Source: Phreatobacter sp.
GTDB taxonomy: Bacteria > Pseudomonadota > Alphaproteobacteria > Rhizobiales > Phreatobacteraceae
Assembly (NCBI RefSeq): GCF_030691135.1
Contig: NZ_JAUYFA010000014.1
Span: forward strand, 1-52,677
DNA: 52,677 nt
Direction: 5' to 3'
Shown here: positions 1,888-43,765 of the stretch, in pieces
Position numbering within the stretch: the first letter of the stretch is position 1
Layout of the letters: every line of letters begins with the position of its first letter
The notes under the pieces: generated by a model
Seen by the model: only the letters and a program-made list of their open reading frames with translations
Databases searched by the model: none
Told to the model about the DNA's origin: nothing
Position numbers and translations under genes: made by a program

Positions 1888-2148
1888 GTGTCTATCAGTT
1901 CACGCACGTGCCTTTCAGCCATGGCTGCCGTCGTGGTGATGACATTCATGACAGCTTCATCAGCAAACGCAAACGCCCTGAACTGCAAATATGGGAAGTA
2001 TGAGGTCGAATATCGAGACGAAAACCAGCTAAAAATTCTGTTCGGTACGAGTTACTGCACCATCCGTCGCTTCAGCTATCGGTCCGATGCGGAGAATTTC
2101 GCACGAAACAACGGCATGCAGCCCGGTCGCCCCTGTTCCTGTCGTTGA
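1888..2148 (+). CDS. Small four-cysteine exported protein (paralogue B)
   Basis: This 86-residue protein starts at GTG 1888, supported by an AGGAGAA ribosome-binding site 9-15 bases upstream. It has a signal peptide (AAVVVMTFMTASSANA) and a short mature part with four cysteines. The block from FGTSYCTIRRFSYRSDAEN to the terminal CSCR is nearly identical to 236..496. It opens a head-to-tail run of exported proteins on the + strand, and the next gene starts 33 bases after its stop. Function unknown. The conservation of the cysteine frame among three copies argues that it is a real folded product. Confidence 0.7.
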   Translation: MSISSRTCLSAMAAVVVMTFMTASSANANALNCKYGKYEVEYRDENQLKILFGTSYCTIRRFSYRSDAENFARNNGMQPGRPCSCR

Positions 2149-2180
2149 GTGCCGTGAGCCGGTCGTCGAAGCAACACGTC

Positions 2181-3254
2181 ATGAGTGTCTACCAAGCCGA
2201 GAGTCCGGTGATCGGCCGCGGCGCGCGCCGCGCCGCGCTCGCGCTTGGGCTCGCCATGGCGAGCGTGGTGTCCTTCCCGGCCCTGGCGCAAAGCTCGGGA
2301 CATCCACCGCCACTCATGTCGTTCGGATCCTGGACGGCGTTCTGTGACAACACGGGCGGATGCGGGCTCGCCAACGTGTCGATGCGGCGCGAGCCTGGCG
2401 CGAGCGATCCAGACCAAACCCAGGCCTGGGTATGCGCGTGGCTTGGCGCGGAAGGCGATGCAGATGCGAGGCTTTCCATCATTCTTGAACCGCCTGGTCG
2501 AACGCCGGCCGCGCCGCCCGCGATCATCCTCGAGGTTGGCCCAAGCCTTCTTGGAACCGCGCGAACGGGCGACGACGACCGCCATGAGATCACGGGCGCG
2601 GATGTGCCACATGTCGCCCGACGGCTCGGCGCCGAATCTCGTCTCGACCTGCGCGAGCCCGACGGCGGCCCGGTTCTCGGTCGGGTTTCGCTCGCAGGGT
2701 TTCGTCGAGCCCTGGGCTACGCGGAGCTTCGGCGCGCTGTTGCGCCGCCTGTCCACGAGATCGTGCCGCGTTCGTTCCAACCGGTCGAGCGTCGTGCGCC
2801 GGCGAGCTTGGCGGCGCTCCATAGCACCTGGTGTTCCGGCGCTCCATGGGAGCCAGCGTCCGCGCGGTCGTACCGTCTCTTCGATGGCTCCTACCTCTGG
2901 ACGGCAGGTTGCCGGCGCTCAGCCTACAATCCGCTCACATTGGTCGCGATCGAGGCGGGCGATGGGTCGACCAGGGAACTGCAACTCCCCTCGGTCGTAG
3001 ACGACGATATGGTCGGCCCCGGCTTCACGAACCTCGCGCTAGACCCCGCGCGCGGGCGGCTCGAAGACCTCTTCAAGACCCGCGGCGCGAACGACTGTGG
3101 AACGCGCCGCGCATGGGTCTGGGACGGCGTGCGTTTCTCTCTCGTGTCGGAGCACACGATGCCGAACTGTTTCGGTGCCGGCCATGGGCAATGGCTCCGG
3201 GTGTCCGTCACGCCCGTGCGCGGCGAACCACCATCATCGAGGCGGCCATGTTGA
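2181..3254 (+). CDS. DUF1176-like exported protein 1
   Basis: The protein is 357 residues from the ATG at 2181, with a signal peptide ending near SFPALAQ. The mature N-terminus has the family signature FGSWTAFCDNTGGCGLAN, that is, an aromatic-led SW, then CDN and a second cysteine. The C-terminus has the second signature TRGANDCGTRRAWVWDG followed by MPNCFGAGHGQWLRV. Together these match the DUF1176 layout, an uncharacterised periplasmic family with two cysteine-paired domains. It is most similar to the copy at 7276..8382, which shares SWTAFCDN and GAGH.QWLRV. Its stop is overlapped by the next start (ATGTTGA), implying translational coupling. An in-frame TTG at 2145 is a less likely start. 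Confidence 0.72.
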   Translation: MSVYQAESPVIGRGARRAALALGLAMASVVSFPALAQSSGHPPPLMSFGSWTAFCDNTGGCGLANVSMRREPGASDPDQTQAWVCAWLGAEGDADARLSIILEPPGRTPAAPPAIILEVGPSLLGTARTGDDDRHEITGADVPHVARRLGAESRLDLREPDGGPVLGRVSLAGFRRALGYAELRRAVAPPVHEIVPRSFQPVERRAPASLAALHSTWCSGAPWEPASARSYRLFDGSYLWTAGCRRSAYNPLTLVAIEAGDGSTRELQLPSVVDDDMVGPGFTNLALDPARGRLEDLFKTRGANDCGTRRAWVWDGVRFSLVSEHTMPNCFGAGHGQWLRVSVTPVRGEPPSSRRPC

Positions 3255-3550
3255 ATGGATGTAAACAACGAGCGCGCGCCATTCCCTTGCCGGTTCTCGC
3301 TTTCTCTCACGCTGCGTTCCTGACAAGCGCCGCCTCGAGCGCTGCCATCGCCTGCGCGGATGCGGTCGCCTTTGGCCCGGCTGACCACGGCCATCGTGAA
3401 CGCTATGCGGACCTCCTGACATCCGCGGTTCTCGGGCTGCGCAAATCGCTCGGCGGAGATGGCGACCGGGGCAGTGATGTTTTCGTTCCTTCTGGAGGCT
3501 CCCGATTGCCCCAACAATTGCTGCCTGAATTTGGCCCGGAACAATCATGA
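3248..3550 (+). CDS. Unknown 100-residue protein, probably exported
   Basis: The frame starts at ATG 3248, overlapping the previous stop by 7 bases, and ends at a TGA that overlaps the next ATG in the classic ATGA form (3547-3550). This double overlap is the main argument that it is a real gene. The N-terminus has basic residues (KQRARA) followed by a weakly hydrophobic alanine/serine-rich stretch (LPVLAFSHAAFLTSAASSAA) that could be a signal sequence. The rest is low-complexity and unlike any family I know. It may be a degraded or rapidly evolving member. Confidence 0.45.
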   Translation: MLNGCKQRARAIPLPVLAFSHAAFLTSAASSAAIACADAVAFGPADHGHRERYADLLTSAVLGLRKSLGGDGDRGSDVFVPSGGSRLPQQLLPEFGPEQS

Positions 3551-4080
3551 TGATGGAATACTGCAAAAAACGGCACCGTTCGCCCCTGAAACCGCTGCTG
3601 GCAACGCTTGCCGGAATCGCGTTGCTCATGCCTCTGCACGGCCCTGTCCGAGCTGACGGGCCGGCCCTGGAGCCAAGGGATTTTCGCGGCGTCTGGGTCG
3701 GAGATACCGGGCATTGCAGGTGGGCGAACGACTTCAATATCGTCTACGGGCGCAGGAGCGCGGAATTCCCGCGTCGCGAGGGGACGGAGCCAAGCCACTT
3801 CTGCCGCATTATGTCAGTCGAAGGACGACGTCCTTTGTGGAAGCTGCGCCTGGCCTGTCGACATTTCGATCCCGAACATCGCGCGCCGAGGATGTTCGAG
3901 GTGCGTCAGACCATCCGGATGATGGACGATGGCTACCGGATGATGATCGAGAGAGAACCTGTTCTCGGCCAACCAGCCCGGACAGAAGAAGTCTTTTATT
4001 GCCGCAGGCCCAGCGATCCGGAGCCGGTGCTGATGTGCTTCTCACGGGAGAAGGGCCATACTGTTCCATGCGAGCCTTGA
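3547..4080 (+). CDS. Exported GVW-type protein (paralogue of 6264..6713)
   Basis: This 177-residue protein has a signal peptide (LLATLAGIALLMPLHGPVRA). Its mature part starts with FRGVWVGDTGHC and carries further cysteines in SHFCRIMSVEGR, LRLACRHF and VFYCRR. The same skeleton (GVW, CAVQSMSGR, LRLICRS, IWCR) occurs in 6264..6713, so the two are paralogues. The GxW start followed by alternating strands suggests a small lipocalin-like beta barrel, but that is inference. The start overlaps the preceding stop by 4 bases, and its own TGA shares one base with the next ATG at 4080. Confidence 0.65.
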   Translation: MMMEYCKKRHRSPLKPLLATLAGIALLMPLHGPVRADGPALEPRDFRGVWVGDTGHCRWANDFNIVYGRRSAEFPRREGTEPSHFCRIMSVEGRRPLWKLRLACRHFDPEHRAPRMFEVRQTIRMMDDGYRMMIEREPVLGQPARTEEVFYCRRPSDPEPVLMCFSREKGHTVPCEP

Positions 4081-5126
4081 TGACCGGGCGCATGCGGATT
4101 CCGCCCATGCTGATGGTGCTCGGGCGAACCTCAGTACTGCTGGCCGTGGGTTGCCTGTTTCTGCCTCCCTCACGCCTGGCTGTCGCGGAGTCGTTCCCGT
4201 TACCCGTGCGCCAGTCCGGCGACTGGGTGTCCGGTTGCGACAACAAGGCCGTTTGCACGATGGTCGGGACCGCAAACGCCACGCTGGCGGATGCGGCCAT
4301 GCCGAATCGTCAACGCCTCGCGATCCGCATCACGAGTGACATGTCGCCGATAGGCGAGACGCGCATCGATATCTGGCGCCTTCCGGCTGACCCGACAGGA
4401 CAGGCGGGCACTCAGCAACCCGTCGTGCTGAGCTTCGCTGGCACAGATGGATCCTCGGGTGCCAAGCTCCCAGGCGATAGGTTGTCATTTACGAACGGCA
4501 AGGCCATGGACTGGGTTGTGGCGCTCGCCGAAGCGAAGGAGCTTCGGGTCTCCCAATCGGATGTCGTGGCGCCACGGAGCGAGGGCTTCCCGCGCGCCTG
4601 GTCATGGCTGACCCAAAGACGGGCCGAAGCCATGCGCAACGCGCCAGTTGCGGCGACACGACGCGAGCGCCTTCGTCCGGCGCATGAAGTCGTGTCTCCA
4701 GCCTATCCCGCAGTCCAGTTGCTGGATGTCATCTGCCCCGAGGGACGCCGTCTCAGTGGTCACCGGCAGTTCATGTTGCCACCTGGGGATGCCTTGTTGT
4801 GGGCGGTCACCTGCAATGGCCCTGAAGGCTCATCCACGCACTGGTTCCAGTCGGCCCCGCGTTTCGCCTTGGCTACGCCGCTCAAGCTGCCGGATAGCCA
4901 CGGCGATCTCATCGACGCCGGCAAGGATAGCTTGCCGGACAGCGTGTTCGACTTCGATTTCGGTGTCCTGCGCGCGCGGCACGGGCCGGAGGGACGAACC
5001 GATTGCGGCGTGCAGCGGGCCTGGGGATGGGACGGTCGCGGCTGGTTCCTGCTGGAGCGCCGCGACATGCCGGCCTGCGCCGGCCTTGAGCCGACTTGCT
5101 GGATCAGGACCTACGCGTCGCCGTAG
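4080..5126 (+). CDS. DUF1176-like exported protein 2
   Basis: The protein is 348 residues from ATG 4080, which forms a TGATG junction with the upstream stop; ATG 4068 is an alternative. A signal peptide (SVLLAVGCLFLPPSRLAVA) is followed by SGDWVSGCDNKAVCTMVG, the first DUF1176 signature. The second signature near the C-terminus is GRTDCGVQRAWGWDGRGW, followed by DMPACAG. It is closer to the copies at 8376..9569 and 11806..12894 than to 2181..3254, so the five copies appear to form at least two subfamilies. It ends the first block of coupled genes. Confidence 0.72.
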   Translation: MTGRMRIPPMLMVLGRTSVLLAVGCLFLPPSRLAVAESFPLPVRQSGDWVSGCDNKAVCTMVGTANATLADAAMPNRQRLAIRITSDMSPIGETRIDIWRLPADPTGQAGTQQPVVLSFAGTDGSSGAKLPGDRLSFTNGKAMDWVVALAEAKELRVSQSDVVAPRSEGFPRAWSWLTQRRAEAMRNAPVAATRRERLRPAHEVVSPAYPAVQLLDVICPEGRRLSGHRQFMLPPGDALLWAVTCNGPEGSSTHWFQSAPRFALATPLKLPDSHGDLIDAGKDSLPDSVFDFDFGVLRARHGPEGRTDCGVQRAWGWDGRGWFLLERRDMPACAGLEPTCWIRTYASP

Positions 5127-5900
5127 GTGATCGCCAACGTAGCGTCAACGATCGCCGCCGCTGAGGACGGCTCCGTCACGGGATCCGTGAACGTCATGAT
5201 CCTGCGCCGCGTGATGATGCGCGTCAGGTAGCCGCCAAAAAACGAAACGGTTGCCGCGCGTTGAGTGACTGGACGCCGCGCCTTCCGGAACGACCGTCGT
5301 TTAGAAGCCGGATCGCCGCACGTAAAGGCCGAACGCGGAGGTCGCACCGGGCGCAAGCTCATGCCCGAGGCAGGGAAAGATCTCACCGGCAAAGTCTGCT
5401 CTCGGGGATAGAACCTCGCGGCGGTCATCGAGATGGACATGGCTCCCGGATGTCGCCTGTTATCCCAGCCGCGCCAGCATCGCCGCGAGGACGGCGTGTC
5501 CCCGACTGATCACGAAGCGCAGTTCGTTGAACGTTGCCGTTTGGTTGGCATGGCGCGCCAGGTTGATGTCATGGCCCCAGGCACGGAGTTCCTCGCGTTC
5601 ACGGAAGCCATCCAACTCCTATGCACCGCCGGTCCGGGAAACGAAGGCGAAGTTGTAGAAGGTCTTATCAAGCCGGACATGGCGCTGTTCGGCGCGATCC
5701 TGCGACAACAATGGCCCGGCACTGTCTTCTGCTGCTGACGTAGGCCGGTAGCCCATGCATTTGAGCGCCTGCCCGATAGCTTCAGCCAAACCTGTCATAC
5801 GACTTCGCGCCTGCTCCATGCCTGATCCGAGCGATCATCCGCGACCGCAACGGCGTTGCTGCCATTACAGGACGGGCGATCACGGCAGCCCTGCAACACA
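5127..5900. other. Gene-poor gap with decayed coding-like stretches
   Basis: I see no intact gene in these 774 bases. The minus strand contains stretches that look like old coding sequence, described separately at 5460..5819. Shorter pieces between 5111 and 5450 change frame repeatedly. The gap separates the two coupled gene blocks of the cluster. Confidence 0.5.
5460..5819 (-). pseudogene. Decayed minus-strand gene with in-frame stop
   Basis: Read on the minus strand from about 5819, one frame gives about 66 residues ending FAFVSRTGGA and a TAG at 5619-5621. It then continues in the same frame with ELRAWGHDINLARHANQ through LAAMLARLG to a TAA at 5460-5462. The two halves look like one broken gene. 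The second half faintly resembles the NLNQLA-type motif of MobC-like mobilisation proteins, but I would not rely on that. Confidence 0.25.
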
Positions 5901-5920
5901 AGTGCGATAGCGCACATCAC
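5901..5920 (+). promoter_or_regulatory. Repeated element, copy 2, with inverted repeat
   Basis: The sequence AGTGCGATAGCGCACATCAC contains a perfect GTGCG-ATAG-CGCAC inverted repeat at 5902-5915. It is located 50-70 bases upstream of the ATG of the small exported gene at 5970, a plausible operator position. It shares 17 of 18 bases with 1698-1715. Confidence 0.4.
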
Positions 5921-5969
5921 GAAGCGTCACCCGCACGTATGGCTGAATCGTATTCCGGAGGGGCGTGAC

Positions 5970-6263
5970 ATGAATTGCATTTCACAATCGGAACAACTGA
6001 AGCCTAAACGAAGCCGCCTCGCGCTGTTGGCGTCCTGCCTTGGTGCCGCGATGGTTCTGTTACCAGGCCCGGCTCTGGCCGATTACTGGGTCTACTGCAT
6101 CCACAGCAAGATCCGGATCGAAAGCCGCCCTCCGGCGGATGTCGGTCGATCCCACATCTCCTCGTCGATGTGCACGCTCGGCTCCTTCAGGCATGTCGGC
6201 GATGCGCGGAGCTTTGCCCAGAGGAACTGGCGTGGCGAAGGTCAAAGCTGCGCGTGCCGCTGA
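5970..6263 (+). CDS. Small four-cysteine exported protein (paralogue C)
   Basis: This 97-residue protein starts at ATG 5970 behind a strong GGAGGGG ribosome-binding site (5957-5963). The signal peptide is LLASCLGAAMVLLPGPALA. The mature part keeps the cysteine positions of the other two copies (VYCIHSK, SSMCTLGSF, terminal SCACR) but has diverged elsewhere, for example RHVGDARSFAQRN in place of RSDAENFARNN. It opens the second coupled block. Its TGA is directly followed by the ATG of the next gene. Confidence 0.68.
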   Translation: MNCISQSEQLKPKRSRLALLASCLGAAMVLLPGPALADYWVYCIHSKIRIESRPPADVGRSHISSSMCTLGSFRHVGDARSFAQRNWRGEGQSCACR

Positions 6264-6713
6264 ATGAACCGCCTGCAGGTCATTCTCCTCGCGATGGGGG
6301 TCATACTGCCGATGCCGCTCCTTGCTGACGGCGACGCCCAAGTCCGGCGAACCTATTCGGGTGTCTGGGCCGGCAAGCGCATGCCATGCACCGCGCCAGA
6401 CGATCGACTGCATGTCTACAGCAAGTCACGGACAAGCCATCCCGCAGTGTTCGACGACTATCCCGGTTACGCCTGCGCCGTGCAGAGCATGAGCGGTCGG
6501 TGGCCGCAGTGGACGCTGCGTTTGATCTGCAGGTCGCATCAGATCAACCAGCCTCCAGTCATGCTCCGCACGACGCAGACGCTTACCCTCACTGATGGCG
6601 GCAGGTGGCTTCGAATGAAGATGGTTTCGGATCGGGGCGATGAACTCTGGTCCGATGACATGATCTGGTGTCGCTCGCTGAGGCCGAAAAATCCGAAGAG
6701 AGGTCCACCGTGA
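6264..6713 (+). CDS. Exported GVW-type protein (paralogue of 3547..4080)
   Basis: This 149-residue protein has a short signal peptide (VILLAMGVILPMPLLA). The mature chain has YSGVWAGKRMPC, YACAVQSMSGRWPQWTLRL and DMIWCRS, the same cysteine and tryptophan frame as 3547..4080. In both blocks this family sits close to a small four-cysteine protein and a DUF1176 protein, suggesting that a whole module was duplicated. It begins immediately after the previous stop and its TGA overlaps the next GTG start. Confidence 0.65.
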   Translation: MNRLQVILLAMGVILPMPLLADGDAQVRRTYSGVWAGKRMPCTAPDDRLHVYSKSRTSHPAVFDDYPGYACAVQSMSGRWPQWTLRLICRSHQINQPPVMLRTTQTLTLTDGGRWLRMKMVSDRGDELWSDDMIWCRSLRPKNPKRGPP

Positions 6714-7279
6714 AGACAGGCGCAAAAGGCTATCACATGGACAATCTCATCAAGATCGCGAGCAACTCGCTCATCGTATGGCTTGGCGCGCTGGGGCTCG
6801 TCGTCGGGTTCGGCATGTTCGGCTACAGCGTGATCACCGGGCCGCCGACCCGCGCCAGCCTGCAAACGGTTGAGGGCACCATCAGCGAGGCATCGCGTGT
6901 CACGCGGAGAAGCCGGCGCACCGGTTCGACGAACTCCTATTTTGAGATGACGCTGAAGCCTGTTGCTGGAGCGGCCGATCTCAAGCTGCGGGTCCCGACC
7001 ATCGAAATGGCCGAACCTGACGTCCGCTCACTGATCGGTCGGCCAGTCAGGGCGGAATTCGACTCGGAGCAGGATGTGTATGTGCTGCGCAGCGGCAACC
7101 GCGAGGTGCTGACATTCGAGAACACGATGGAACGCCGGAAGCTTTCGTTCCGCCAGTACTATGTTGACGGCATCGCACTGGTGATCGGCGGTTCGGTTCT
7201 GCTGGTCATCGGTTTTCTGCTCGGTTTGCGCAAGCTGCGGAAGCAGGCTTCGGCAGGTGGGCGGACCGTGGAGGGATGA
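6710..7279 (+). CDS. Membrane protein with soluble domain between two TM segments (DUF3592-like)
   Basis: The protein is 189 residues from GTG 6710, which overlaps the previous TGA and has AGAGAGG 6 bases upstream; ATG 6737 is the alternative. A first membrane segment (IVWLGALGLVVGFGMFGYSV) is followed by about 100 residues rich in beta strands, with QTVEGTISEASRVTRRSRR and Y-F motifs. A second segment (GIALVIGGSVLLVIGFLLGL) and a basic cytoplasmic tail follow. This layout, with a TATV-like GTISEA segment, resembles DUF3592 proteins. The gene at 10113..10719 has a similar plan. Confidence 0.55.
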   Translation: MKTGAKGYHMDNLIKIASNSLIVWLGALGLVVGFGMFGYSVITGPPTRASLQTVEGTISEASRVTRRSRRTGSTNSYFEMTLKPVAGAADLKLRVPTIEMAEPDVRSLIGRPVRAEFDSEQDVYVLRSGNREVLTFENTMERRKLSFRQYYVDGIALVIGGSVLLVIGFLLGLRKLRKQASAGGRTVEG

Positions 7280-8382
7280 CCATGAACCAAAGGCGACCAT
7301 GGGCGAGCCGGTGTGATGCTGGCGGAGTCATCGTCTGCGCGATGCTCGCCATGATGGGCGCGACGCCGGTGTTGTCGCGAAACGTGGGCCATCCAGCACG
7401 GTTGATCGAGCTGGGGAGCTGGACGGCCTTCTGTGACAACAGCGGTGGATGCGGCGTCGCCAACCTGTCATCGCGGCGTGGAGCCTTCGCCGCAAACCCC
7501 GATGCGGCGTCGCCATGGACCTGCCTTTGGCTTGGCGCCGCTGACAGGCCGGACATGGAGCTCTCGGTCCAGATCGACGAAGGCCGGGGCCATGGCCAAG
7601 GCCCGGGTGTCGAACCGGTCCGGCGCGAGATTCTGCTTGAGCCTGCGAGGGGCGACTCTGAGGACCCGGTTGGGGCGCATCTCGTTGCCCGTCTCGGCGA
7701 TGACGGCCGCTACCAGATCGACGCCCGTAGCCTCCCGGCACTGATCACGGATTTGCAGTCGGCGGACGTCATGCTGGTGCGAGAATCGGCGGTTGGCCCG
7801 GTCCTCGGCCGCGTCTCACTGGACGGACTGCGGCAGGCTTTGGCCTTTGCGCAGGGGAGCAGGACAAATGCCCGGCCGCTCCCGAACTTCGCGCCGAGGC
7901 CCTTTACGCGGCTGGAGCGCGGCGACACCAAGCGGGCGACCGCACTGCATCGGCAACATTGCAATGACGAACTGGGCGGCGGGCCGCGTGTCGAGATGTT
8001 CAGGCTATCGCCGGACCGTCAGCTCTGGACGATGCCCTGCCGCCCCAGCGGATCCAATCAGAAGGTGCTTGCAATGACGGGAGCAGGCAACGGGAGGCTT
8101 TCAACCCTCGTCCTGTCGTCGATCGTCGATCACGACGGAATCGGACCGGATTTCAGCAATCTGCTCGTCCAGCCTGAGCTGGGCACCATAGAAGATTATC
8201 ACAAGACGCGCGGCACCGGCGATTGCGGCATCCGCCGCCGCTGGGCCTGGAATGGCGGGCGCTTCGTGCTCGTGTCCGAGGTGTTCATGCCGGTCTGTTT
8301 CGGCGCGGGCCATTCCCAGTGGCTGCGGGTGCATATGTCCGGACCCCACAGCGCAGCCGGCGTCCGGAGGTCCGCATGCTGA
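7276..8382 (+). CDS. DUF1176-like exported protein 3
   Basis: This 368-residue protein starts inside an ATGA overlap with the upstream gene. After a signal segment (GGVIVCAMLAMMGATPVLS) comes LGSWTAFCDNSGGCGVANLS, almost the same as in 2181..3254. The C-terminus has TRGTGDCGIRRRWAWNG and FMPVCFGAGHSQWLRVHM. These two copies form the SWTAFCDN subfamily, each about 110 residues longer between signatures than a single small domain would need. It is coupled to the next DUF1176 gene by a 7-base overlap (ATGCTGA). Confidence 0.72.
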   Translation: MTMNQRRPWASRCDAGGVIVCAMLAMMGATPVLSRNVGHPARLIELGSWTAFCDNSGGCGVANLSSRRGAFAANPDAASPWTCLWLGAADRPDMELSVQIDEGRGHGQGPGVEPVRREILLEPARGDSEDPVGAHLVARLGDDGRYQIDARSLPALITDLQSADVMLVRESAVGPVLGRVSLDGLRQALAFAQGSRTNARPLPNFAPRPFTRLERGDTKRATALHRQHCNDELGGGPRVEMFRLSPDRQLWTMPCRPSGSNQKVLAMTGAGNGRLSTLVLSSIVDHDGIGPDFSNLLVQPELGTIEDYHKTRGTGDCGIRRRWAWNGGRFVLVSEVFMPVCFGAGHSQWLRVHMSGPHSAAGVRRSAC

Positions 8383-9569
8383 TCAACCTGCCGTGTCGGC
8401 CTGATCGCCGGCGTGACATTCGCTCCCGCGCCCGTCTGCTTCTACTCGGAGCCACATTGGCGTTGGGAGGCAGCCCGGCGTCGTCATTCACGCTTGAGGA
8501 AAGCGGTGAGTGGGTCGTGTCCTGCGAGAATACTGCAGCCTGCTCCCTCGTGAATGCGTCGCAACTGACCCAACTGCGAGTGGCGCAGCCCTCGCCCTTC
8601 GGCATGTCACGGGTCTGCATCAACCGCAGGGCCGGACCACATGCCACGGCGCAGGTCTTCGTCACACTGCGCAACCGACCGGTCATGCATCCGGCTGCAT
8701 CCCGGGAGGCGAGGTCGCTGCGCGTGTTCGGCGCCAATTTCTCGCAGTCCGACATTCCGATGCTGCACCGAGGAGCCGAGCATTGGGAAGTCCCTGCACG
8801 TGCGGTGGCCGGCTTCCTCACAAGCATCGGCGACGCCAGCCGGTTGCACGTCATCGGGCCGGAAGGCGCTGTCGTCGAACACTTGTCGCTTCATGGCATC
8901 GATCGCGCGCTGGCGGTGATCGACCGGGCCCAGGAGCGCGCCGGTACGGTCACGGCGCTGCGCGAAAAGGGCTCAAGGCCCGCGTCGTCCGTCCTCGCAG
9001 AGAACCGCCCGGAGGCCCTGGTCACGGCGCCGCTTGCAGTGCTCGCCGCGCCCCATCAGCCGTCCGCAGCCGCGCTGCGCCTGCGGCACGCGACGTGCGG
9101 CGCCCCCGGGCTTGACGCGACAACCGGTTACCGCTTGCTCGGAGACCAGCGACGGCCAGATCGCATCCTCTGGGTGACCCCGTGCGACTCCCGTGAAGGC
9201 ATGCCCAGGTCTTTCTTCGTCATCCAGCAGGAGAACGGCGCCGCGGCCCCTGTCGCCTTTCCGGGCAACCAGCCGGAGCGGCCGAGCGGACAGCAGGGCC
9301 TGCTGACATTCCCGCAGTTTGATGCGGGGACTGGGCAGGTGCGTGAGATGTGGCGCGAGCCGGTCGTGCCGGCTCCGGGCAAAGCCTGCATCATCCAGAG
9401 GCTCTGGGGCTGGAACGGGGAAGCCTTCGAACTGGCCGAAGAGCGCCGGAGCCTGACTTGCGCCGGCCTCGTGACCGGATACTCGCCGCGGACATTCACC
9501 CGCGATGTCATAATGCCTGCGACTTCGGGCCTTGCCCCGGCCGCCGAAGCCTTCCGTCCCCCTTGCTGA
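8376..9569 (+). CDS. DUF1176-like exported protein 4
   Basis: This 397-residue protein starts at ATG 8376 behind GGAGG at 8366-8370. The signal peptide is ARLLLLGATLALGGSPASS, followed by SGEWVVSCENTAACSLVN, in which the usual CDN has become CEN. The C-terminal signature has diverged to GKACIIQRLWGWNGEAF followed by SLTCAGLVTG. It is the most divergent of the five copies, and the GDCG element near the C-terminus is reduced to KAC. It lies directly after 7276..8382, so the two subfamilies sit as a pair. Confidence 0.68.
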   Translation: MLINLPCRPDRRRDIRSRARLLLLGATLALGGSPASSFTLEESGEWVVSCENTAACSLVNASQLTQLRVAQPSPFGMSRVCINRRAGPHATAQVFVTLRNRPVMHPAASREARSLRVFGANFSQSDIPMLHRGAEHWEVPARAVAGFLTSIGDASRLHVIGPEGAVVEHLSLHGIDRALAVIDRAQERAGTVTALREKGSRPASSVLAENRPEALVTAPLAVLAAPHQPSAAALRLRHATCGAPGLDATTGYRLLGDQRRPDRILWVTPCDSREGMPRSFFVIQQENGAAAPVAFPGNQPERPSGQQGLLTFPQFDAGTGQVREMWREPVVPAPGKACIIQRLWGWNGEAFELAEERRSLTCAGLVTGYSPRTFTRDVIMPATSGLAPAAEAFRPPC

Positions 9570-9580
9570 GGCAGCCCGAC

Positions 9581-10066
9581 ATGATGCCGAACCGATGCGG
9601 ACTGGCGTTGCTGCTGTTGCTTGGATCGCTGTGGCCTGCGCTGGCGCTGCAGCGGGATGAGGAGGAGCCTGGCTGGGTCGGGTTTGTCGAGGGCATCGAA
9701 TCGTGCATCGCCGGGAAGACACCGTTGCTGACCCATGGCTACGACTGCATCGGCAGGTTCAGCCACGCCTGCCTCAATCATTCCGAGAACCAGACGACGA
9801 TCAGCATGGAGCGTTGCTATCCCGACGAATACCGCGCCTGGGATGTGATGCTGAACCGTTACTTCCGGGAAAGGCCGAAAGGCGCGCTTGGCGACGAGCT
9901 GCAGCAAATCCAGCGCACGTGGATCACCTACAGCGACCGAAAGTGCGGCTACTTCCAGCTTCACTACGCTGGCGGCTTAATGGCGCGATGGCTCGGGGCG
10001 CAGTGCCTGGCCGACACAACTGACAGAAGGGCGATCGAGCTTCGGTTCTTCGCACAGGACCGGTGA
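9581..10066 (+). CDS. DUF1311/LprI-like exported protein 1
   Basis: This 161-residue protein has a signal peptide (LALLLLLGSLWPALA). The mature domain has the DUF1311 pattern: TTISMERCYPDEYRAWDVML, then LNRYFRERP, then QRTWITYSDRKCGYFQLHY, and GAQCLADTTDRRAIEL. That corresponds to the helical family that includes the periplasmic lysozyme inhibitor LprI. An N-terminal extension with two further cysteines (ESCIAGK, DCIGRF) precedes the core. Its paralogue is 13449..13958. By family it may inhibit a lysozyme or other peptidoglycan-degrading enzyme, but no target can be read from the sequence. Confidence 0.72.
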   Translation: MMPNRCGLALLLLLGSLWPALALQRDEEEPGWVGFVEGIESCIAGKTPLLTHGYDCIGRFSHACLNHSENQTTISMERCYPDEYRAWDVMLNRYFRERPKGALGDELQQIQRTWITYSDRKCGYFQLHYAGGLMARWLGAQCLADTTDRRAIELRFFAQDR

Positions 10067-10112
10067 GGGCTTGCATTTGACACTGAATATTGACGCAAGG
10101 CCTTGGTTCAGC

Positions 10113-10719
10113 ATGGCCTTCAAATGCCTGTCTGTACTTGCACTGATATTTGCCCTTATCTGCTTCATGCGGATGCAGGATGAACAATCGGTGGTGTCTC
10201 GTTACTAAAAAGGAAGGCGTTGTTTCGCGCGCGCTCGTCACCGGCAAGCAACTCGACAAAATGGTCCATGAAGGCAGCATCAGTCATTCGGGCAGGTCCC
10301 GCACAGGCACGGGCAGGATGACAACAACAGATTTGCATGTGTTGCATGTGCGTTTTGTGCCCAAATCCACGGTGAGGTACACCGATTACCTCTCCAAAAT
10401 TGGTGGATTAGATCTACCGACGGCACCGGCGTTTTCAGGAAACACCCTAGCAGATTCGGAATTTGGCGATGTGATGTTTGTATCGAGAGCGCTCCATGAC
10501 AGGACGAATGTCGGTGACGTGTTGACCGTTGTCGATACGCGGTTCAGCGGAGATGGCCCCAGACTGATCTCTGACATCGCCGATTTTGACGGGAGTAGCT
10601 ACTACGTCGGTATCGCGGCGGGGCTCGTCTTGGCGCTCCTCCCTTGGCTCATCGCTATCCGTATCGGCAAGCCTCCGCCCGCACGAAACCGCTCTGATGC
10701 TGGACTTTCAGGGGCTTGA
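10113..10719 (+). pseudogene. Frameshifted membrane protein (DUF3592-like plan)
   Basis: From ATG 10113 one frame encodes a membrane segment (CLSVLALIFALICFM) and runs to a TAA at 10206-10208. Just there a second frame, shifted by +1, opens with KKEGVVSRALVTGKQ and continues for about 170 residues. That frame ends with a second membrane segment (YYVGIAAGLVLALLPWLIAI) and a TGA at 10717-10719. Neither half makes sense alone, whereas together they give the two-segment plan of 6710..7279. The join lies at a TAAAAAGG run, where a one-base insertion, a sequencing error or recoding are all possible. Base composition here is lower in GC than in the neighbours. Confidence 0.5.
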
Positions 10720-10794
10720 TGGGCGGGGAACAGACTCAATCGCTGATCTTGTTCCGCGCGGCCATTTCAGGTTGATCGACATGAACGGTGAGTG

Positions 10795-11325
10795 ATGAGT
10801 GACAATGCAGATACTGGTCAGAAGATGGACGAGACAGGGTCAGATTTGCGCCAGACCGGCCCAGGCGTGATCCTCTCGGCAATGGTCGTGCTTTGCATCG
10901 GCCTGATCACAATCCCGGTCGCTGGAGCGCTTGTGATTATTTATAGCTGGGGGATGCTGTCGCCTTTTGATTTGCTGACCCTGCTCACAATTGATTCAAA
11001 CATTTCTGAAGTATTCTTCATTCCGAGAGACTTGCTTTTCATTGTGGGACTGATTTTCATCATCGCATTCTTCATGCGTGCCTCCTGGGGGCCGCCCATC
11101 CTATCGGTTCTCGCTCTACTTTGGGCGATCTCGGCAAGCGTCGCGACCATGCTCGTTCCCATGCGCGCGATGCCCGGCGGCCTTCCCCTCCTTACGGCGC
11201 TGAATCTGGCGCCGGCAATGATCGCGCCAATGCTTTTTGCGCTCGGTTTCACAGGATTTCTGCTGACCAGCGACAGCGCATGCCGCTGGTTTGCCCCGCC
11301 TGACGCGAGGATTGCCCATGTTTGA
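10795..11325 (+). CDS. Four-segment integral membrane protein of unknown family
   Basis: This 176-residue protein starts at ATG 10795; GTG 10792 is also possible. A polar N-terminus of about 25 residues leads into four predicted membrane segments: GVILSAMVVLCIGLITIPVA, then LLFIVGLIFIIAFFM, then ILSVLALLWAISASVATMLV and PAMIAPMLFALGFTGFLL. No family is recognised. Its stop overlaps the start of the release-factor-like gene by 8 bases. Base composition is visibly lower in GC than in the flanking genes. Confidence 0.6.
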   Translation: MSDNADTGQKMDETGSDLRQTGPGVILSAMVVLCIGLITIPVAGALVIIYSWGMLSPFDLLTLLTIDSNISEVFFIPRDLLFIVGLIFIIAFFMRASWGPPILSVLALLWAISASVATMLVPMRAMPGGLPLLTALNLAPAMIAPMLFALGFTGFLLTSDSACRWFAPPDARIAHV

Positions 11326-11809
11326 TGACGCAGCTGATCAGCCCGTCAGTTGCTACATCGACATCGTCGCGCTGGCCGGAGCAGACGAGGGCCACGCCTT
11401 CGTGGACATGATGCTGAACATGTACAGACTATGGGCTTACAATCATCACCTTCACTTCCAAGTTGTTTTCCCGCGCAAGCTTGTGGAGCGCGGGGGCATC
11501 GACCGGGCCAAGTTACGGATCGACGGCGCGGACCCGGACATGCTTGCCAGCCGCGAGAACGGGGTTCACCGGATGATCCGGACGCCGCCCGGCAAGACCC
11601 AGCGCCGCATGGCGCTTATAGGTGTCCGCGTGTGCGACGCCGCGGACGCTCCGCTTCCGGAAGCGCCTTATGGCTGGGGGGAGCAGATCCGCAGCCTGAT
11701 CGTCGACCCGCATCCATGCGTGAAGAACCACTGCACCGGCTTTGAATGCCAGGACACCGTCGGCGTCATCGCCGGAGACCTGGACCAGTTCTGGGAGGAG
11801 AGAACGTGA
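11318..11809 (+). CDS. Release-factor-2-like protein lacking the GGQ domain
   Basis: This 163-residue cytoplasmic protein has no signal peptide. Residues 11-45 (SCYIDIVALAGADEGHAF, MMLNMYRLWA) and 82-97 (GVHRMIRTPP, then QRR) align by eye with the codon-recognition region of class I release factor RF2. Residues 118-160 (YGWGEQIRSLIVDPH, DTVGVIAGDLDQFWE) align with its C-terminal domain. The roughly 110 residues between these blocks in RF2, including the catalytic GGQ loop, are absent; the junction is at about residues 105-117. The SPF stop-codon tripeptide is replaced by a TPPG segment. It cannot be a normal termination factor: it might bind ribosomes without hydrolysis, or have been repurposed. 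ATG 11291 is an alternative start. The next gene starts in a GTGA overlap. Confidence 0.75.
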   Translation: MFDDAADQPVSCYIDIVALAGADEGHAFVDMMLNMYRLWAYNHHLHFQVVFPRKLVERGGIDRAKLRIDGADPDMLASRENGVHRMIRTPPGKTQRRMALIGVRVCDAADAPLPEAPYGWGEQIRSLIVDPHPCVKNHCTGFECQDTVGVIAGDLDQFWEERT

Positions 11810-12894
11810 CACGCAGCTCCAAACTGTGCTCCATGGCCCTGTTCGGCATCGGCTTCGCCCTGTCCATCACTTCGCCCGCATCTGCGCAGACCCGCCAGTT
11901 CCGGAGCTGGGTCGCCGGCTGCGACAACACCAGGGTTTGCACGGCGATCGCCTTCGCCGAACCGTCCAAGGCCGTGGCGCAGCCCGGAATACCCTTCGTC
12001 AGGATCAGGCACCATCCCCTCAGGGACGCGACGCCGGAGATATGGATCGTCGATCCCGGCCCGGCGGCGGCCGGCGCGCGCGCGGGGGTACGGGCGCGGC
12101 TTGTCGTCCAGCCAGAAAGGTCCGAGGTCGCCAAGGGGTCTGACGTCCTCACGGCGGAGATCGACGGCGACAGCGCATTACGGTTCAGGATCAAGGATGC
12201 GCGGCGCGCCCTGCACGCCCTGCGCTCGGGTGCGGCGATCACGCTGGACATCGGCGAGAAGCGCAATTTGCGGCTTGTGACGCAGGGGCTCGACGCGGCC
12301 CTTCGTTACTTCGACGACCGGCAGGAATTGAGCGACACGCCCGGGGCGCTCGTCAAGAAGCCAGACAGCGTCCTGGCCGACTACTGGCATCCCCAACCGC
12401 CTGATGCGGACGCGGTCGAGGCGACTGCCTTCGGCGAACCCGTTCATGCCGACTTTACGCAGAGGTCCCTGCCGGCCACGCCGCGCTGCAGGCTCCCGCA
12501 GCCCGAGGCGCCAGTGCAGGCGTTTCCCTTGCGCGGTTCGGCGATGCTTCTGCGAAGCCCGTGCGTTGCTGACGGCGTCAATGAGATGTCGGCGTGGTAT
12601 CTGGTCCCGAGGACCGGAGCGCGGCCCTCGCTTCATCGGTGGCACAATGGCGGCGACGACAACCGGCCGGATGGCGCGATCCTTCTGAACGCCGAGGCGC
12701 TTCCGAATGGCGGGCTGATCCGCGCTATGCGGTTTCTTGCGGCGACGCGGGATTGCGGCGTGTCGGAAAGCTGGGGCTGGACCAGGGAGGGCAAGTTCGC
12801 GCTGGTTGAACGCAGTGAAATGCCGCTGTGCCGGACGGCAGGGCCCGCCCACTGGATCGTCACCTACAGGGCCGATCTGATATCGCTGAACTGA
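11806..12894 (+). CDS. DUF1176-like exported protein 5
   Basis: This 362-residue protein starts at GTG 11806, overlapping the stop of the release-factor-like gene and preceded by GGGAGGAG at 11793-11800. The signal peptide is MALFGIGFALSITSPASA. The first signature is FRSWVAGCDNTRVCTAIAFA, the second TRDCGVSESWGWTREGKF followed by EMPLCRTAG. It belongs with the copies at 4080 and 8376. Translational coupling to the release-factor-like gene means the two are probably made together. Confidence 0.72.
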   Translation: MTRSSKLCSMALFGIGFALSITSPASAQTRQFRSWVAGCDNTRVCTAIAFAEPSKAVAQPGIPFVRIRHHPLRDATPEIWIVDPGPAAAGARAGVRARLVVQPERSEVAKGSDVLTAEIDGDSALRFRIKDARRALHALRSGAAITLDIGEKRNLRLVTQGLDAALRYFDDRQELSDTPGALVKKPDSVLADYWHPQPPDADAVEATAFGEPVHADFTQRSLPATPRCRLPQPEAPVQAFPLRGSAMLLRSPCVADGVNEMSAWYLVPRTGARPSLHRWHNGGDDNRPDGAILLNAEALPNGGLIRAMRFLAATRDCGVSESWGWTREGKFALVERSEMPLCRTAGPAHWIVTYRADLISLN

Positions 12895-12920
12895 CCGTGT
12901 CCGTCCGCTTGAGGATCAGT

Positions 12921-13360
12921 ATGACGACATTCGACCAGAAAAGGCTGATCGATGCGCCCTTGGCGGCGAGCGCGCTGAACGCGTCCTGCCGGATCTGGCG
13001 CTCGCCACGGAACCATCGCATGGGCGGTTTGGTCTGTTTCTCCGGGCGCTACCGGCCAGGTTCCGAACGAAGCGATGACGCGCGATTCATCCGCCGGACG
13101 CTCATGGCGTTCTACGAGGATTGCCCGGTCGACGGCATCGTCATCGATTGCCGGCACCTGGACTACGGATGGGGCGACGATCTTGATCTTCCGAACCGGT
13201 CCATGTTTCGCGAGCGGCAGATCCCCTCGTCGTCGTTGTCGATGCCGTGCAGTCGCCTGCCTACAGCCACGCCATTCCCGGCAACCTCCACCGTCATGAC
13301 ACCGATGCGGCCTTAGCAGAAATCGCGGCAATGATACGGCTGATGAAAAGCCGCCTGTAG
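12921..13360 (+). pseudogene. Frameshifted cytoplasmic protein of unknown family
   Basis: The frame from ATG 12921 gives MTTFDQKRLI through VDGIVIDCRHLDYGWGDD to about 13216. After that it loses coding character, although it stays open to 13316. In the frame shifted by -1, the sequence from 13217 reads DPLVVVVDAVQSPAYSHAIP through MIRLMKSRL to a TAG at 13358-13360 and continues the same alpha/beta pattern. A one-base deletion near 13210-13217 would explain it. Joined, the product would be about 146 residues with strand-helix alternation. I do not recognise the family. Confidence 0.5.
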
Positions 13361-13448
13361 GAGCGGCGGATGATCCAGACCCTTCATCCGACGCGGACCA
13401 ACGGCGCGCCCCAATCCCAAACACCACAGACCGGAAGTCCGAACGCCC

Positions 13449-13958
13449 ATGCGAAACGCCGCAACCACCCTGCTTCGAAGCGTCTTGCCCGTCTTGATGC
13501 TCGCCTTCGTCTGCCTGTCCGGTCCCGCGTTGTCACAGCAGCGCGATGAAGACGAGGGGGAATGGGTGGGGCTGGCCGAGATGCTGGAATCCTGCATCGG
13601 GAACGCGCGAAACGATGCCGGCAAGCGGCTGGCTTGCGTCGGTTCTTTCGCCCGGACCTGCATCCAGCGCGCCGAGAACCAGACGACCATGGGAACGGAG
13701 CGTTGCTACATGCTGGAGCACAGGGCCTGGGATGCGCTGCTGAACCGCTATTTCCGCGAGCGGCCACAAGGCGAGAAGGGCACGGCGCTTGTCGCCGTCC
13801 AGCGGGCATGGATCAGCTACCGCGACCTCAAATGCGGATACTTCCGGATACATCATGATGGCGGCTCCATCGCGAGGATACTCGCTGGCAACTGCATGAT
13901 GGATGAGACCGGCCGGCGCGCAATCGAGGTTCGCGCCTTCCGCAACCAGGCGCGATGA
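13449..13958 (+). CDS. DUF1311/LprI-like exported protein 2
   Basis: This 169-residue protein has a signal peptide (VLPVLMLAFVCLSGPALS). It closely parallels 9581..10066: an acidic QQRDEDEGEWVGLAEMLESC start, then ENQTTMGTERCYMLEHRAWD, LNRYFRERPQG, QRAWISYRDLKCGYFRIHH and GNCMMDETGRRAIEV. The Cys/Trp frame is that of DUF1311, the LprI lysozyme-inhibitor family. The two copies share the N-terminal extension with its extra cysteines, so they arose by duplication inside the cluster. Its TGA overlaps the next ATG by 4 bases. Confidence 0.72.
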   Translation: MRNAATTLLRSVLPVLMLAFVCLSGPALSQQRDEDEGEWVGLAEMLESCIGNARNDAGKRLACVGSFARTCIQRAENQTTMGTERCYMLEHRAWDALLNRYFRERPQGEKGTALVAVQRAWISYRDLKCGYFRIHHDGGSIARILAGNCMMDETGRRAIEVRAFRNQAR

Positions 13959-14447: not shown

Positions 14448-14663
14448 TCATGCCGGCGGGGGCGCCGGAGAGCCGTTCAACAGTGCGATCGGGGGCTTGT
14501 TGCCGATGCCGCTGTGCGACCGGACCTCGTTGTAGTCTCTACGCCAAGCCTCCATTTTCGAGCGGGCGTCGTCAAGGCTCATGAACCAGTGCGTGTTCAG
14601 GCCGAGAAGGCGCTGACCACCGAGAATCCGAGTTTCAAGACGTCTTTGGAACTCCCTACTCAT
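14448..14663 (-). pseudogene. IS3-family transposase (OrfB) C-terminal remnant
   Basis: The minus-strand frame ends with LNTHWFMSLDDARSKMEAW, then RRDYNEVRSHSGIGNKPPIA, typical of the integrase-core C-terminus of IS3-family transposases (normally DYNxxRPHSxLG). The first 22 or so residues are unrelated, so only the tail survives. The flanking 14380-14447 probably includes the old terminal repeat. Confidence 0.7.
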
Positions 14664-18110: not shown

Positions 18111-18806
18111 TCAATGCCGTTCTCGGGCAAGTCGTCCATCGAGCAAGCGGATTTCCCGGCGGCACTGACCAGCGATCGTCTCATCATGGGTTGAGATCAG
18201 GAAGGTGGTACCGTCGGTCCCGTTGAGATCGATAAGGAGATCCATCACCCGCCTTGCACTCTCCCGATCGAGATTGCCCGTGGGTTCGTCGGCGAGTACC
18301 AGATCAGGGCTGTTCATCAAGGCACGCGCCACCGCCACGCGCTGCTTCTGGCCTCCTGATAGTTTGCTTGCCGGAAAGTCGCGGCGATCGGCAAGCCCAA
18401 CCTTGTCCAGTAGCTCGGTTGCCCGCCTTCGATCGACTGGTGTTTCGCGACCCTTTCGGGTAGCTGCCGGGAACATGACGTTTTCGAGCGCGGTAAAGTC
18501 GGGCAGCAGATTGTGCGCTTGGAAAACGAAGCCGATGTGCTGGTTACGAAACTCGGTGAGATCGACGTCGCGGGCGCCGATCAGGTTGAAGCCCAGCATC
18601 TCGAACCGACCACTTGTCGGCCGCATCAAGGTGCCGAGTATGCTGAGCAGCGTCGATTTGCCAGAGCCTGAAGGGCCCAGAAGCGCCACAAATTCTCCCC
18701 GATCCAGACTGAGAGACAGGCCGTTGAGAACTGTTGTTGAAATTTCGCCATCGTTGAACTCCTTGACCAGATCGGTAATGATCAGGAGTGGCGTGTCTAC
18801 AATCAT
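18111..18806 (-). CDS. ABC transporter ATP-binding protein (LolD/MacB type)
   Basis: This 231-residue ATPase has all motifs: Walker A GPSGSGKST (44-52), Q-loop FVFQAHN, signature LSGGQ (149-153), Walker B LVLADEP (169-175) and the switch histidine in STHDE. The subfamily is that of LolD and the MacB ATPase domain, which pair with FtsX-type permeases. Its start overlaps the permease stop by 4 bases. It energises the exporter encoded by this three-gene operon. Confidence 0.88.
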   Translation of the reverse strand: MIVDTPLLIITDLVKEFNDGEISTTVLNGLSLSLDRGEFVALLGPSGSGKSTLLSILGTLMRPTSGRFEMLGFNLIGARDVDLTEFRNQHIGFVFQAHNLLPDFTALENVMFPAATRKGRETPVDRRRATELLDKVGLADRRDFPASKLSGGQKQRVAVARALMNSPDLVLADEPTGNLDRESARRVMDLLIDLNGTDGTTFLISTHDETIAGQCRREIRLLDGRLARERH

Positions 18807-43530: not shown

Positions 43531-43765
43531 ATGAACCCGGCGGGAGAGTCCGGGTGGTCTTCATGTTGATGGGATCCCCCGGCGCCGAAGGAGCAACGGC
43601 CCCGGAACCTCTCAGGCAAATAGGACCGCCGGTGGAATGACATTCTGGAAAGTGGCCGGAGGTCCAATCCCGGCCCACCGACGGAGTAAGCCGTATGGCT
43701 TCCGCTTGCGGAGGCCCGCTCTGAGCGAGCTGCGGTGAATCTCTCAGGTCCTGCGACAGAGGGGC
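43531..43765 (+). ncRNA. Tandem glycine riboswitch
   Basis: Two aptamers are recognisable. The first (about 43531-43632) has CGGGAGAGTCCGGG, GGCGCCGAAGGAGCAA and GGAACCTCTCAGGCAAATAG. The second (about 43643-43765) has TCTGGAAAGTGGCC, CACCGACGGAGTAAGCCG and GTGAATCTCTCAGGTCC. The linker is about 10 bases, as in the classic double-aptamer form. It lies 78 bases upstream of gcvT and so turns on the glycine cleavage operon when glycine is abundant. Confidence 0.93.

Follow-up and report, generated by a model that had tools for sequence, protein, structure and literature searches.

A release factor 2-like protein without the GGQ domain at a DUF1176/LprI array of Phreatobacter sp.

Bacterial release factors are two-ended proteins: one end reads the stop codon and the other releases the peptide. 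In the window analysed here, a stretch of 52,677 nucleotides of Phreatobacter sp. (contig NZ_JAUYFA010000014.1, assembly GCF_030691135.1), a short gene resembles release factor 2 (RF2) and lacks the releasing end. The locus raises the question of what such a remainder could do, and whether it does anything at all. Our tentative answer, to which we give a probability of about 0.4, is that the product may be a non-catalytic, RF2-derived binder of the decoding centre. If this is true, the codon-recognition superdomain is re-usable alone, and there is a natural protein with the reading end only, in which the stop-reading residues are gone and the ribosome-contact loop is kept. A literature search by titles and abstract openings gave no description of a stand-alone bacterial release-factor superdomain.

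Descent from RF2 and state of the gene

The Pfam PCRF domain (PF03462) scored 52.5 bits on the RF2-like protein (cut-off 24), over profile positions 100-187 of 194 only (Table 1). The NCBIfam prfB model matched in two stretches with 79.9 bits (E = 1.8e-22), below its curated cut-off of 370 bits, and two NCBIfam models for release factor 1 (RF1) scored lower (30 and 28.3 bits). The best PDB matches were RF2 chains, with residues 9-94 placed on RF2 131-215 and residues 116-160 on RF2 321-364. The stretch between these blocks measures about 105 residues in RF2 and about 21 in the RF2-like protein, a net loss of about 84, and domain 1 is gone as well. Identity to RF2 was about 27-35%, with only small insertions and deletions besides the clean domain losses. 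GGQ was absent from the protein, and the PF00472 search of the whole genome returned three genes, none on this contig.

An earlier reading made from the sequence alone had described two RF2 blocks around a missing GGQ segment of about 110 residues and had called the arrangement unusual. The Pfam, NCBIfam and PDB matches bore out the two blocks, and scanning Pfam, NCBIfam, PADLOC, and PHROGs brought up no model with this layout; the size of the loss had to be corrected, and domain 1 added to it. The profile comparison with PrfB and PrfH that it proposed came out for PrfB, and no PrfH model was among the NCBIfam matches. NCBIfam presumably includes a PrfH model. At the level of sequence, descent from an RF2 gene, without domains 1 and 3 and with the codon-recognition superdomain left, is well supported.

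Two further PCRF genes were found in the same genome, which by scores and frames are prfA and prfB. This prfB was closest to a Xanthobacter prfB (79.7%) among the named matches listed, a similarity that points to Hyphomicrobiales. Origin of the RF2-like gene as a recent copy of the resident prfB was unsupported, identity being about 30% and 40% in the two blocks.

The RF2-derived gene is intact and native-looking, as the sequence-only reading had held. Its open frame had a codon score of 0.234; the two remaining forward frames scored −0.396 and −0.58, the three reverse frames 0.097, −0.222, and −0.699, and the neighbouring LprI and membrane genes scored 0.238 and 0.267. Guanine plus cytosine (GC) content at the three codon positions (0.67/0.42/0.78) resembled that of the DUF1176 and LprI genes; at the third position it was lower in the two genes just upstream (0.59 and 0.65). 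The start of the gene overlaps the upstream membrane-protein gene and its stop overlaps the downstream DUF1176 gene, for which GTG 11806 was our choice of start and an ATG at 11746 lies in the same frame. The promoter and terminator scan gave results no better than chance.

Table 1. Positions in the window of the RF2-like gene, its parts, and the genes around it.
Feature	Coordinates	Strand	Basis
Gene of the GGQ-less, RF2-derived protein	11318..11809	+	Intact ATG to TGA frame, 163 amino acids; PCRF and prfB profile matches
Domain 2 part, residues 10-98	11345..11611	+	PF03462 match
TPPG at the place of RF2 SPF	11582..11593	+	Alignment, sequence
Short linker in place of domain 3 (GGQ)	11612..11662	+	Alignment; no PF00472 match on the contig
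Domain 4 part, residues 116-160	11663..11797	+	Second RF2 stretch
GWGEQIR, RF2-type switch-loop motif, Trp equivalent to RF2 Trp319	11672..11692	+	Columns at least 95% conserved in RF2
Membrane-protein gene upstream (judged as membrane by eye)	10792..11325	+	No Pfam family; 3 of 11 other genomes of the genus have a homologue
Downstream DUF1176 gene, GTG start	11806..12894	+	DUF1176, 107.3 bits
DUF1176 and LprI genes, conserved part of the array	8373..10066	+	57-59% and 73-74% identical, same order, in two same-genus genomes

Retained residues and a possible action at the decoding centre

Residues were compared in an alignment of 144 release-factor rows, 139 of them labelled RF2 by script and the resident prfB counted twice. 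At columns at least 95% conserved in RF2 and holding a residue in the RF2-like protein, 25 of 52 were kept. The kept residues were G82, H84, R85, and R88 in the GVHR region, and G119, W120, G121, Q123, I124, R125, and S126. SPF is replaced by PPG within TPPG: in the alignments Ser became Pro, and Phe fell in a gap or read Gly, which confirms the SPF loss that had been read from TPPG. The T, S, and F after the arginines and the HT after SPF were also changed, as were several positions in the GGTE region. A GG/GP motif contacts position one of the stop codon (PMC1586002), and we read this motif as the GG of the GGTE region. In the RF2 switch loop A1492 stacks on Trp319, a Trp that RF1 is without (PMC5378476). 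The stop-reading tip is thus lost, while an RF2-specific ribosome contact is retained.

Retention dropped as column conservation dropped (25/52, 10/28, 15/49, and 6/31 kept). This gradient is compatible with selection and is no test of it, because the consensus residue is not the ancestral residue. Three cysteines spaced five apart (residues 134, 139, and 144) lie in the domain 4 loop and could form a metal site or disulfide; one of them replaces an Arg present in 139/139 RF2 rows. A tree was not used: the branch was long (2.18), P0001 paired with the RF1 row of its own genome, and the RF1 label was wrong for some rows, such as L020, which is 79% identical to the resident prfB.

With GGQ gone, peptidyl-tRNA hydrolysis is not expected, and with SPF and the following HT replaced, neither is stop-codon reading. 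Because the RF2-specific GWGxQIRS loop is kept, binding of the decoding centre would be the most likely action, and the retained switch-loop Trp makes such binding plausible. The protein would sit in the A site without peptide release, and its effect could be to slow termination or to shield the decoding centre during attack or stress. The model built with RF2 rows gave the superdomain fold, and its fold-match lists were headed by RF1/RF2; the BFVD fold search gave no matches at E ≤ 0.001.

Several results weigh against a decoding-centre binder. The other 27 of the 52 strongly conserved RF2 columns, some of them in the GG and SPF regions, hold a different residue. The model with RF2 rows was biased by those rows, and the single-sequence model was uninformative (predicted local distance difference test, pLDDT, 36.7); the structure prediction proposed earlier thus gave the RF2 superdomain fold with RF2 rows and no such fold without them. 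The neighbours with known domains belong to the DUF1176 and LprI families, not to translation genes, and none was identified as a toxin gene. The search for relatives sharing the deletion found none, and therefore function has no conservation evidence beyond the open, codon-biased frame.

The surrounding array and the search for relatives

The array (2145-13958) contains five genes of the DUF1176 family and two of the LprI family, besides a pair of small paralogous proteins (3547 and 6264; 29% identical). In two relatives the order was DUF1176 (57-59%), LprI (73-74%), membrane gene (38-39%), and a small gene, and in a third same-genus genome the DUF1176, membrane, and small genes stood in order. 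The small gene of the relatives starts like a signal peptide (by eye). Compared with the relatives, the window has an extra gene (10150) between LprI and the membrane gene, and the RF2-like and DUF1176 genes replace the small gene. Genes 6668 and 13955 are adjacent in relative L185, where the second is cut by the locus end, and are 6.7 kb apart in the window. Because a different small gene follows the membrane gene in the relatives, the RF2-like gene is lineage-specific accessory cargo at a variable site of the DUF1176/LprI array. Compared with other genomes of the genus the array is partly syntenic but rearranged; it has the look of a variable array of immunity type, and LprI domains are linked to toxin antagonism and type VI secretion system immunity (PMC12135965). 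By analogy, the accessory-cargo position suggests that the RF2-like protein may have a protective, immunity-like role.

The Pfam scan of 21 window proteins in addition to the RF2-like one (part of the 52.7 kb; 13955 was scanned twice) named no toxin other than through a cross-match of the ABC-transporter ATPase at 18111-18806 to AAA_21, 'putative AbiEii toxin', the sole toxin-named match in the scan. PADLOC gave nothing for 9 proteins. A short frame after the DUF1176 gene (12888-13316) had no PADLOC, PHROGs, or Pfam family, and its late part looks frameshifted by eye. An integrase-core transposase fragment (rve_3, 47 bits) lies on the reverse strand at the array edge (14448-14663). Elsewhere in the window, a glycine riboswitch aptamer was detected on the forward strand (43531-43638, 67.6 bits).

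The overlap with the membrane gene, the other small gene at this site in relatives, and the variable array with DUF1176 and LprI genes would also suit re-use of the RF2 superdomain as a protein-binding module without a ribosome role, for instance with the overlapping membrane protein as its partner or as an immunity-type protein that binds an incoming toxin. The degraded stop-reading tip and the three cysteines of the domain 4 loop, one at an invariant RF2 Arg, fit such a module too. We regard this explanation as doubtful but worth serious thought: the kept GWG switch loop, specific to RF2, is difficult to account for if no ribosome is involved, and no partner or toxin was identified.

Relatives were sought at E limits of 1e-10 (genus and order), 1e-9 (class and phylum), and 1e-11 (another class), in samples that overlap. 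These strict limits were chosen to exclude ordinary prfB, so distant relatives could be missed, and GGQ in the class and phylum matches was inferred from frame length only. Matches were obtained in 1/12 genus and 1/397 order genomes, and the short deletion-form frame was that of the window's own gene only. At class level 14 of 385 genomes matched, the other 13 frames being 348-377 amino acids long, and at phylum level 5 of 398, the other four being 357-377 amino acids long; in both only the window's gene was short. In another class 0/239 genomes matched, in a search that had no positive control. At E = 0.001 in 61 genomes, frames besides the window's gene were at least 250 amino acids long, save one 53-amino-acid frame (G025:C304, unopened) at the end of the list, from a genome in which a contig end truncates prfB.

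The DNA pattern of the deletion form (gap 92-122, ending GAY) occurred in 1/347 genomes, the gene's own, and a reversed control pattern in 0/347. A looser pattern (without GAY, gap 90-120) gave at least 117 stretches in genome_contigs, and GGQ lay in frame upstream of GWGxQIR in 115/117; in the remaining two (L083 and L126) the frame runs off the locus start. As far as visible, these stretches are ordinary prfB genes, and they do not amount to a survey of genome_contigs. The protein scan of genome_contigs gave no relative of the RF2-like protein, and viral_contigs gave none by protein scan or DNA pattern.

Matches were obtained in 39 phage records (by tblastn) and in 44 plasmid records. Four of each were opened (loci L186-L193), and all eight had GGQ; the remaining records were at most judged from their annotation. 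Five of the eight look like RF1 by switch-loop sequence. The protein of L189 (Prevotella phage Lak-B5) is RF2-like with GGQ and has a KRMTSF variant beside the codon-reading tip. The one PHROGs match (phrog_19918, 355 positions, function unknown, E = 1.7e-11) fits a full-length release factor. A phage origin was unsupported, given this match, the lack of a viral_contigs relative, and GGQ in 4/4 opened phage records. Homologues sharing the deletion, a search for which the sequence-only reading had proposed, were thus not found within the limits of the genus, order, class, phylum, and other-class samples, and as far as tested the RF2-like protein is a singleton.

The occurrence in one genome only, together with the transposase remnant nearby and with release-factor matches elsewhere that had GGQ in 8/8 opened cases (the rest judged by frame length), could point to a functionless leftover of an RF2 gene duplication, whose frame is still open by chance or was inactivated only recently. 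We consider this unlikely. The frame has no stop at about 27-35% identity to RF2, and an unselected frame at such divergence would be expected to break; its codon pattern is within the range of its neighbours, and it overlaps both adjoining genes. A decoy that mimics RF2 and absorbs a factor or toxin aimed at the codon-recognition superdomain, which the fold of the RF2-guided model and the accessory-array location would allow, is quite improbable, as no RF2-targeting toxin turned up and the tip has diverged.

Comparison with known systems

The RF2-like protein shares domains 2 and 4 and the GVHR and GWGxQIR motifs with PrfB, and differs from it by the lack of domain 1, of domain 3 with GGQ, and of SPF. 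PrfH is the reverse case, as it keeps GGQ and lacks the region that begins near residue 320 of RF2 (PMC1586002). No RtcB gene adjoins the RF2-like gene, which is flanked by a gene for a Pfam-less protein and the DUF1176 gene. ArfB/YaeJ is likewise a small release-factor derivative, but it keeps the GGQ motif (PMC1586002), whereas the RF2-like protein keeps the opposite half. Membership of PrfH or ArfB was rejected, since GGQ is absent and the NCBIfam matches held no PrfH model.

PrfH, itself a release-factor derivative, acts with RtcB2 in defence against colicin E3, whose cleavage site lies between A1493 and G1494 (PMC9223846). By analogy, a bare RF2 superdomain might shield the decoding centre from nucleases or drugs as a new bacterial protective factor, which we consider a long shot.

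Possible parallels in action are Balon and Dom34/Pelota, release-factor relatives without GGQ or its catalytic Gln that bind the A site, and the RF2-like protein is likewise without GGQ. Such GGQ-less factors of the archaeo-eukaryotic aeRF1 family serve in hibernation or rescue (Balon, PMC10901736; Dom34, PMC6514570). The RF2-like protein is of bacterial RF2 descent by its matches: PCRF was the only Pfam match at E = 0.1, and the fold lists headed by RF1/RF2 do not exclude other, aeRF1-type domains. If a decoding-centre binder is the correct reading, the protein would be a bacterial counterpart of Balon, Dom34, and similar factors that lack GGQ.
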